Of a stretch of DNA of 64,000 nucleotides, positions 48,673 through 50,143 are shown piece by piece. A program made the translations under genes and the position numbers. The stretch covers positions 1 to 64,000 of the forward strand of contig CALXLV010000016.1 in assembly GCA_944389295.1 (NCBI GenBank), given 5' to 3'. Each line of letters begins with the position of its first letter. Position 1 is the first letter of the stretch. The notes under the pieces are model-generated. The model made no database searches and was not told the origin of the DNA. It saw only the letters and a program-made list of their open reading frames with translations. Source of the DNA: an uncultured Spirochaetaceae bacterium. GTDB taxonomy: Bacteria; Spirochaetota; Spirochaetia; Sphaerochaetales; Sphaerochaetaceae.

Positions 48673-48684
48673 TGCCTGAAACTG

Positions 48685-48715
48685 CTCCCGTGGCCGGAAA
48701 GCCATGGGAGTTTTT
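48685..48715 (+). terminator. Rho-independent terminator after the alcohol dehydrogenase gene
   Basis: A 9-bp stem CTCCCGTGG / CCATGGGAG (one G-T pair) with an 8-base loop is followed by TTTTT. Confidence 0.85.
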
Positions 48716-48788: not shown

Positions 48789-48836
48789 TCTGAAACGGAC
48801 TTTTTTCAGGTTTTTGCTGGTTTTGTCCGTTTCAGA
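48789..48836. repeat. Palindromic repeat, downstream copy
   Basis: TCTGAAACGGAC (48789-48800) and GTCCGTTTCAGA (48825-48836) are perfect 12-base inverted arms separated by 24 bases. The stop codon of the AAA ATPase gene lies inside the right arm. A nearly identical pair occurs upstream of the same gene. Confidence 0.9.
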
Positions 48837-50082
48837 AACGTTTTCCATCTCTAATAAATTTTGCAAGATTCTCATGGATAATTCCATTACGCTTCTGCTG
48901 CAGAGAATCAAGAGTCAGCAGATATTTCGGGTAATTATCCTTTATTGATTCCAGTGAACGATACTCGCGATTTTCGGTTTTTTCATCTCCGGTAAAGATA
49001 TACATCGCAACCTGTACATATGAATAATCCAAAGAAGGGCTGCGCAAGATAAAATCAACCTCAAGACTTCCTATTTTACCGACACTGACCTTATATCCGA
49101 GACTTCTTGCATATTGATATACAATATTCTCAAGTACAGGACCATATGGAATGCGGTTATCCGTATTGCGCAGAAAATAGAAACTCAGATCAGAAAGATA
49201 GTATTTTTCACCGCCTTTCAACGAACGTTTGCTCTTCAAATCAAAACGCGTACACTTAGAAATAATCCTGAGATTCTCAAGCTGTTCAATATACCTGTAA
49301 ATGGTTTCCTTCCTCACCTTTTCGCCAAGAATCCCATTCAGATGATTGACTATATTATCAACAGAAAGAGTACAGCCGAAATTATTGATTACAAACTGCA
49401 TAATCAGATCGAAAAGCCGTTTCTTCCTTATTCTCCTGTTCCCCTTCACATCCTTATCGAATATTTCATTCACGACATTCTGGACATAGAAACGTTTTTC
49501 CTCAAGGCCATCGTAGTTTACGGCATAAGGGAATCCGCCTTCGAGAATATATGACCTCAGTTCATCCTCTATGTTCAGGCTTATGTTCTTCCCGACAAAA
49601 CTTTTCATGCCTATGTATTCATCGAATGTGAGCGTTGTCATATTCACTTCAAGGTATCGCCCTGTCAGTTTGGTGACGAGTTCGCCGGAAAGGAGATACG
49701 AGTTGCTGCCTGTTATGAATATAGAATAATCTCCATCTTCCCTGTATGCATTAAGACTCTCTTCAAAACCGACGGCATTCTGTACCTCATCAATGAACAG
49801 ATACTTTCTGCCACGTATCTTATCAGAAGCCTCATCAATGGCGCGTTCAAGCGCCGCAGCATTTCTAATATGTCTGTACGGCCGTCTGTCAAGATTGATA
49901 CCGATGATATTGGATTTCGCAACGCCCTTTTCCAGAAGTTCTTCCTGTATCATAAGAAGCAAAGATGACTTCCCGCATCTGCGTACACCTGTAACCACCT
50001 TGATCATCTCGGTGTCATCATAAAAAGGCCGGAGAATCTTCAAATACTTTTCTCTTGGATAAAGTCTCTTTGTTTCTGTCAT
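48832..50082 (-). CDS. AAA ATPase with DUF4143 C-terminal domain
   Basis: The 416-residue protein is of the archaeal-ATPase/DUF4143 family. It shows Walker A GVRRCGKSSL (32-41), Walker B KYLFIDEVQNA (93-103), sensor-like FITGSNSYLLSGEL, and a C-terminal nuclease-fold-like DUF4143 (KYYLSDLSFYFLRNT, LENIVYQYARSLGYKV, EVDFILR). The family is widespread in host-associated anaerobes, often in many copies, with unknown function. The gene is AT-richer than its neighbours and is bracketed by two copies of the same palindrome. The -35 lies inside the upstream palindrome and the -10 (TATATT) six bases before ATG, so the message looks leaderless. Confidence 0.9.
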   Translation of the reverse strand: MTETKRLYPREKYLKILRPFYDDTEMIKVVTGVRRCGKSSLLLMIQEELLEKGVAKSNIIGINLDRRPYRHIRNAAALERAIDEASDKIRGRKYLFIDEVQNAVGFEESLNAYREDGDYSIFITGSNSYLLSGELVTKLTGRYLEVNMTTLTFDEYIGMKSFVGKNISLNIEDELRSYILEGGFPYAVNYDGLEEKRFYVQNVVNEIFDKDVKGNRRIRKKRLFDLIMQFVINNFGCTLSVDNIVNHLNGILGEKVRKETIYRYIEQLENLRIISKCTRFDLKSKRSLKGGEKYYLSDLSFYFLRNTDNRIPYGPVLENIVYQYARSLGYKVSVGKIGSLEVDFILRSPSLDYSYVQVAMYIFTGDEKTENREYRSLESIKDNYPKYLLTLDSLQQKRNGIIHENLAKFIRDGKRF

Positions 50083-50088
50083 ACTGAA

Positions 50089-50118
50089 AATATACTCTGA
50101 AACGGACTAAATTTGCAA
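50089..50118 (-). promoter_or_regulatory. Promoter of the AAA ATPase gene within the palindrome
   Basis: TTGCAA (50118-50113) lies in the palindrome loop, and TATATT (50094-50089) 18 bases further ends six bases before ATG 50082. One arm of the palindrome (50096-50108) fills the spacer, the position of a classical operator. Confidence 0.6.
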
Positions 50119-50143
50119 AAATTATTAGAAAGTCCGTTCCAGA
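50096..50143. repeat. Palindromic repeat, upstream copy
   Basis: TCTGAAACGGACT (50096-50108) and AGTCCGTTCCAGA (50131-50143) are 13-base inverted arms with one mismatch and a 22-base spacer. They match the copy at 48789-48836 in arm sequence and spacing, though not in spacer sequence. Confidence 0.9.

Follow-up and report, generated by a model that had tools for sequence, protein, structure and literature searches.

A candidate single-gene mobile unit: a DUF4143-type ATPase gene with palindromic ends

The window considered here is the whole 64,000-nucleotide stretch at positions 1 to 64,000 of contig CALXLV010000016.1 (assembly GCA_944389295.1), from an uncultured Spirochaetaceae bacterium assigned to the Sphaerochaetaceae. 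Between an iron-type alcohol dehydrogenase gene and an RluD-type gene, it contains one gene for an ATPase with a DUF4143 domain, bracketed by two 48-bp palindromes. This arrangement, which had been proposed in an initial annotation of the stretch, is confirmed, and 0 such pairs are expected from shuffles of the window. The features of the locus are as follows.

48789..48836, no strand: 3′ palindrome of the unit, 48 bp, with perfect 12-bp arms and a 24-bp spacer; the stop codon of the ATPase gene lies in one arm
50096..50143, no strand: 5′ palindrome of the unit, 48 bp, with a 24-bp spacer and one arm mismatch (TCTGG)
48832..50082, minus strand: ATPase gene, 416 amino acids, with an AAA_14 domain, a winged helix and a DUF4143 domain; best PADLOC match PDC-S01
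49279..49323, minus strand: recognition helix of the winged helix (codons 254–268), the part with the strongest covariation with the palindrome arms; helix 258–270 in the AlphaFold model
50089..50118, minus strand: predicted promoter of the ATPase gene, a consensus match only, with comparable geometry recurring in relatives
48684..48711, plus strand: terminator-like hairpin of the neighbouring iron-type alcohol dehydrogenase gene, outside the unit

Structure and distribution within the genus

The two window palindromes have arms of 12–13 bp and a spacer that is 24 bp in both cases, rather than the 22–24 bases first reported. The TGA stop codon of the ATPase gene lies within an arm of the left (3′) palindrome, as had been observed from the outset. 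Open reading frames and a Pfam scan both give the ATPase as the sole gene between the palindromes; the earlier remark that no transposase is present thus holds, and the unit is without the enzyme of a classical insertion sequence. As single strands, the two palindromes have fold energies 6.5 and 4.8 standard deviations below those of shuffled sequences. The predicted promoter reads TTGCAA-18-TATATT, its TTGCAA being located inside the spacer of the 5′ palindrome and its TATATT just past the gene-proximal arm, with the start codon 6 bases further on. A terminator role for the palindrome was rejected, since the loop is too long, no T tail follows the stem, and a separate terminator is found near the unit.

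The window genome (a 1.98-Mb assembly in 46 contigs) has nine DUF4143 genes, and the palindrome is found at this ATPase only. A search of 48 genomes of the genus for the 48-bp pattern, with fixed spacing and no more than 3 mismatches, found it in 12, with 0 matches for the reversed control. Homologues at least 70% identical to the ATPase are present in 11 genus genomes at about nine different loci, and all 11 are accompanied by the palindromes. When these genes were read at the base level, both ends carried palindromes in G000, G002, G010, G016, G019, G028, G032, G033, G035 and G068. The most degenerate 5′ copies are those of G013, where the unit is near a contig end, and G035; the units of G010, G028 and G033 probably occupy one common place. 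The stop codon falls inside the 3′ arm in most genus units, and an arm altered from TCTGA to TCTAA still keeps a stop. Weaker matching boxes (GAAAA/TTTTC) are found approximately 10 bp outside the arms.

The 5′ and 3′ palindromes are direct repeats of one another, spacer included, in G013, G016, G019, G032, G035 and G068, with identities of 47/48 in G019 and 46/48 in G068. The palindrome pairs of G000 and G002 are most alike in inverted orientation, the spacer being inverted as well. The ATPase gene of G019 is interrupted by insertion sequences (L079:6929-9684, L085:4620-7344): an ISL3-like transposase gene lies inside it near the 5′ end, and a second insertion splits its 3′ end over two contigs. 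Its palindromes differ at only 1 of 48 positions.

No significant sequence is common to the two flanks of approximately 25 further DUF4143 genes of the genus, most of which are 34–39% identical to the ATPase. An upstream palindrome at the threshold applied (at least 11 of 13 arm positions paired) is found at 3 of 23 of them. The palindrome marks one DUF4143 subfamily. A link with DUF4143 ATPases in general, as first envisaged, was rejected, since other subfamilies are without flanking repeats; in the window genome, too, only one of the nine DUF4143 genes has the palindrome. Genome G005 contains a 55% identical homologue (L052) with a GTTATCATTACA-type upstream palindrome. This protein falls among Bacillota proteins in the protein tree, and the copy looks like a separate acquisition.

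Homologues, borders and vacant sites

Homologues beyond the genus were sought in one genome per species across 84,980 species, and the 80 best-scoring (52–65% identity) were taken. They originate from Bacillota, Actinomycetota, Pseudomonadota, Fibrobacterota, Kiritimatiellota, Planctomycetota, Spirochaetota and others, and the phyla are intermixed in the protein tree. An upstream palindrome at the above threshold is found at 52 of the 77 loci that have enough upstream sequence, compared with 2.2 expected by shuffling and 1 of 77 in in-gene controls. The geometry outside the genus is GTTAA.../...TTAAC, and among the cases anchored on T[TG]AA the length is exactly 47 bp in 35 of 48, the genus version being 46 in that register. 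Arm sequences vary by lineage (GTTAAGGGGGTA, GTTAACGTTACC, TAAACCGAACT, CTGAAACGGACT). A −35/−10 pair follows the palindrome in 24 of 41 cases; in 20 of these 24, the arm is followed immediately by the −35 box.

A related palindrome pattern has ten matches in 48 non-genus genomes, nine of which are at a gene of the subfamily and one of which is solo. The L145 genome has a solo palindrome of the GGGGG type (L206:1501-1544), approximately 1 kb from a gene resembling a DUF4143-type ATPase of another subfamily. A class-level search added homologues from two more genera within the same family and from one different family. One of them, L247, belongs to a second genus of this family and bears both palindromes, its arms being those of the window genus. 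The genome of a goat duodenum bacterium harbours two subfamily members (L183, L209) with different palindrome arms. Carriage by phages or plasmids was rejected, given that viral contigs contain no exact match to the palindrome and the best plasmid and phage homologues are merely 30–38% identical.

Units that are 80–94% identical at the DNA level are found in different genomes (L123/L124, L144/L153, L163/L167, L165/L177/L178 and L194/L195/L197/L198). Their similarity extends from the outer end of the 5′ palindrome, some 83–116 bp upstream of the start codon, to within approximately 10 bp of the stop codon, or 30 bp at most; on the upstream side, identity has dropped to background by about 105–120 bp from the start codon. 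No similarity was detected in their flanks up to 4 kb, with the exception of one 102-bp match (L144/L153). The tested neighbours are unrelated host genes, among them argS, tsaE and genes for a MATE transporter, an epimerase and a glycoside hydrolase; no recognisable transposase or integrase is among the genes tested beside near-identical units. The same borders thus recur at unrelated loci, as is characteristic of a discrete mobile unit, and they are equally sharp in the 93–94% identical groups L165/L177/L178 and L197/L198. COG1373, the group to which DUF4143 ATPases belong, has been listed among the genes co-shared between gut genera (PMC10782964). The Fibrobacter loci L188 and L191 are 95% identical across both the upstream flank and the gene, and lose similarity approximately 9 bp past the stop codon, a pattern that may point to events affecting only the 3′-end.

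Vacant sites are also found. The gap between the alcohol dehydrogenase and RluD genes is only 9–60 bp long in G008, G065, G015, G017 and G022, and contains neither palindrome nor ATPase gene. Solo palindromes without the gene are present in G006, G009, G018 and G061. Downstream of metQ, G032 has the complete palindrome-ATPase-palindrome arrangement and G018 has one palindrome in the same place, the two genomes being 93% identical over the 12 kb compared. Among the 30 metQ loci read, a palindrome is found in G018 and G032 only, and the 28 other species have none. The simplest history would be an insertion in their common ancestor followed by loss of the gene in G018; recombination between the two palindromes would remove the gene and leave a solo palindrome behind. 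Given the sharp borders and the empty sites, the segment from palindrome to stop codon, together with the second palindrome in the genus, moves as one piece. The suggestion in the initial annotation that such units spread is borne out to this extent.

The ATPase and its probable recognition of the palindrome

The protein matches AAA_14 (E-value 3e-30, 105 bits against a cut-off of 27) and DUF4143 (E-value 1e-10, 41.7 bits against a cut-off of 28.1), and is thus a member of the AAA_14/DUF4143 family (COG1373). Walker A, Walker B, N127 and R142 are invariant among 59 homologues, as are E341 and D343 of the DUF4143 domain. A sequence search of the PDB found no relative of the ATPase. Structure comparison of the AlphaFold model (mean predicted local distance difference test score 88.8), in which residues 258–270 form a helix of the winged helix, places the fold close to the archaeal AAA+ ATPases 2QEN and 2FNA (Z of approximately 17 across residues 3–307), STAND ATPases and ORC/Cdc6. 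ORC/Cdc6 and the archaeal proteins share the combination of an AAA+ module with a winged helix, whereas the ATPase described here has an additional C-terminal DUF4143 domain.

Covariation between protein and palindrome was assessed, in windows of 15 residues, with 47 proteins whose 5′ palindrome is clear. Arm distance correlates with protein distance (Mantel r 0.47), and 0 of 999 permutations gave a value as high. With the rest of the protein removed, the partial r is 0.58 at residues 254–268 and 0.45 at residues 210–224, and reaches 0.21–0.26 at best outside residues 200–290; with the genus left out, the peak partial r rises to 0.63. The correspondence can be read at residue 257: lysine is found with GGGGG arms, arginine with GGCGG or ACGGACT, and serine or threonine with CGTTA, CAAAT and similar arms, with some exceptions. 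The arms covary chiefly with the recognition helix, so it is very probable that the ATPase binds the palindrome through its winged helix. The covariation, although correlational, is what direct reading of the half-sites by the ATPase would predict.

The palindrome had initially been interpreted as either a protein-binding or a hairpin signal, possibly the substrate of the ATPase. The first alternative fits the combination of conserved arms and variable spacers and is favoured by the fixed spacing and by the covariation with the winged helix, and the ATPase itself is the likely binder. A single-stranded hairpin is less likely than half-sites in duplex DNA in view of the same constant spacing and arm covariation, even though the palindrome folds well.

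Mobility, regulation and defence

These findings can be combined into a compact, single-gene mobile unit with one or two palindromic ends, whose ATPase would bind the half-sites, regulate its own expression and mark the DNA that is moved; the probability of this reading is put at about 0.62. The proposed unit would comprise, in order, a palindrome of approximately 48 bp beside a promoter, the ATPase gene and its stop codon, with a second palindrome overlapping the stop codon in the genus. The ATPase would contact two half-sites about 34–35 bp apart. Binding at the 5′-end would place the protein on its own promoter, so the gene is probably autoregulated, as judged from the geometry; at the ends of the unit, the bound protein probably marks the DNA to be moved. 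The unit carries nothing else, which makes the ATPase the natural candidate for driving movement, and it is tentatively proposed as the driver in place of a host enzyme. It is somewhat doubtful that the unit represents a class of autonomous elements without a known transposase or recombinase, in which the ATPase recognises the palindromic end or ends and itself carries out excision and insertion. Self-driven movement, if demonstrated, would constitute a new class of mobile element.

Several observations weigh against the mobile-unit reading. A recognisable 3′ palindrome, at the same threshold, is found in only 9 of 75 homologues outside the genus, so the gene can be present without having two palindromic ends; in the clearest of these 3′ copies (L156), 1 of 26 arm positions differs from the unit's own 5′ copy and the spacer is identical. 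The DUF4143 domain lacks the lysine of the (D/E)XK motif, the next strand reading Q357-V358-A/S/C359 in 59 homologues. The acidic pair of an active PD-(D/E)XK nuclease is therefore present without its lysine, and DNA cleavage by this domain appears doubtful; an alternative active site may be conceivable. Neither a target duplication nor an excised circle was seen. With respect to duplications, the empty sites are too diverged to align, the sole close pair (G018/G032) retains a full palindrome, and no close pair was found whose empty site is free of palindromes. Moreover, nearly all the genomes are draft or metagenome assemblies.

The ATPase could instead be a stand-alone antiviral gene whose palindrome controls expression during infection, with its mobility reflecting the usual turnover of defence genes. 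Its PADLOC profile match is PDC-S01 (model PDLC04787, E-value 1.7e-121), and its fold is near those of archaeal AAA+ and STAND/ORC ATPases. According to the available text of its description, PDC-S01 is an ATPase fused to a domain of the PD-(D/E)XK superfamily, found through gene neighbourhood ('guilt-by-embedding'), ranked fourth in frequency among prokaryotic defence systems and itself unvalidated (PMC12988326). Among individual defence loci of rumen genomes, it is described as ranking first in frequency (PMC13356809). In the same available text, most phage-defence candidates (PDCs) are unvalidated (PMC12988326), and antiviral defence by the PDC-S01-type ATPase is likewise an unvalidated candidate function. 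Defence alone does not account for palindromes at both ends or for solo palindromes, and this explanation is considered rather unlikely; it is compatible with the mobile-unit reading. The ATPase belongs to the same protein family as PDC-S01 (COG1373, AAA_14 plus DUF4143), yet the available text of that description mentions no palindrome, fixed binding site or unit borders (PMC12988326), features found here in one subfamily only. If the subfamily moves as a discrete unit, its presence inside other loci is weak evidence for defence, and if the autonomous-element reading were true, PDC-S01 would be at least partly a selfish mobile gene.

A further explanation, considered unlikely, is that the palindrome is an autoregulatory operator and nothing else, that the gene is transferred passively, and that the apparent borders are what survives, from operator to stop codon, between diverged flanks. 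The near-universal 5′ palindrome abutting the −35 box, the missing 3′ copy in most homologues and the covariation of winged helix and arms would all fit. Sharp borders are nevertheless found even in the 93–94% identical pairs, where passenger flanks should still align, and the genus keeps a second palindrome at the loci read, with a spacer often matching that of the first. That a different palindrome-recognising enzyme acts in trans and carries the unit along as a passenger, in the way that related transposases move miniature inverted-repeat transposable elements (MITEs), is improbable: the unit encodes no known recombinase and solo palindromes exist, but no other element ending in the palindrome was found among the 48 genus genomes, nine of the ten related-palindrome matches elsewhere are at the ATPase, and changes in the arms follow the ATPase's own recognition helix.

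The protein family is already known, and no description of a palindrome or mobile unit for DUF4143/COG1373 was found in the open-licence full-text literature. Partial likenesses to known systems can be drawn. In REPtrons, repetitive extragenic palindrome (REP) sequences flank one gene, the REP-associated tyrosine transposase (RAYT), and solo palindromes occur elsewhere. The mobile unit proposed here differs in encoding an ATPase instead of a Y1 HUH transposase (the Pfam scan finds ATPase domains and DUF4143 only), in having few solo palindromes per genome, and in a fixed spacer and winged-helix covariation that point to duplex DNA. IS200/IS605 elements are similarly compact, with palindromes near both ends and no classical terminal inverted repeats, whereas the unit has neither Y1 transposase nor TnpB and usually lacks the 3′ palindrome outside the genus. 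Mobile, autoregulated restriction-modification genes are compact units as well; their operators are palindromic, and no transposase is involved in their spread. The unit described here contains no methylase or restriction enzyme, and its regulator, ATPase and possible nuclease would be one protein. Uncharacterised genes for DUF4143 ATPases abound in gut anaerobes and archaea. The palindrome offers a candidate DNA target for the family, with a readable residue-to-base code, making binding, regulation and movement directly testable.

Two minor observations concern the ends of the unit. A TTAA target duplication, as in piggyBac, was rejected: TTAA is found at several left ends, but many right ends read TTCTGA or TTTTAG. 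The final residue of the ATPase is phenylalanine in most homologues, giving a gene end of TTYTRR; this nearly matches the first bases of the palindrome arm, also in homologues without a 3′ palindrome.
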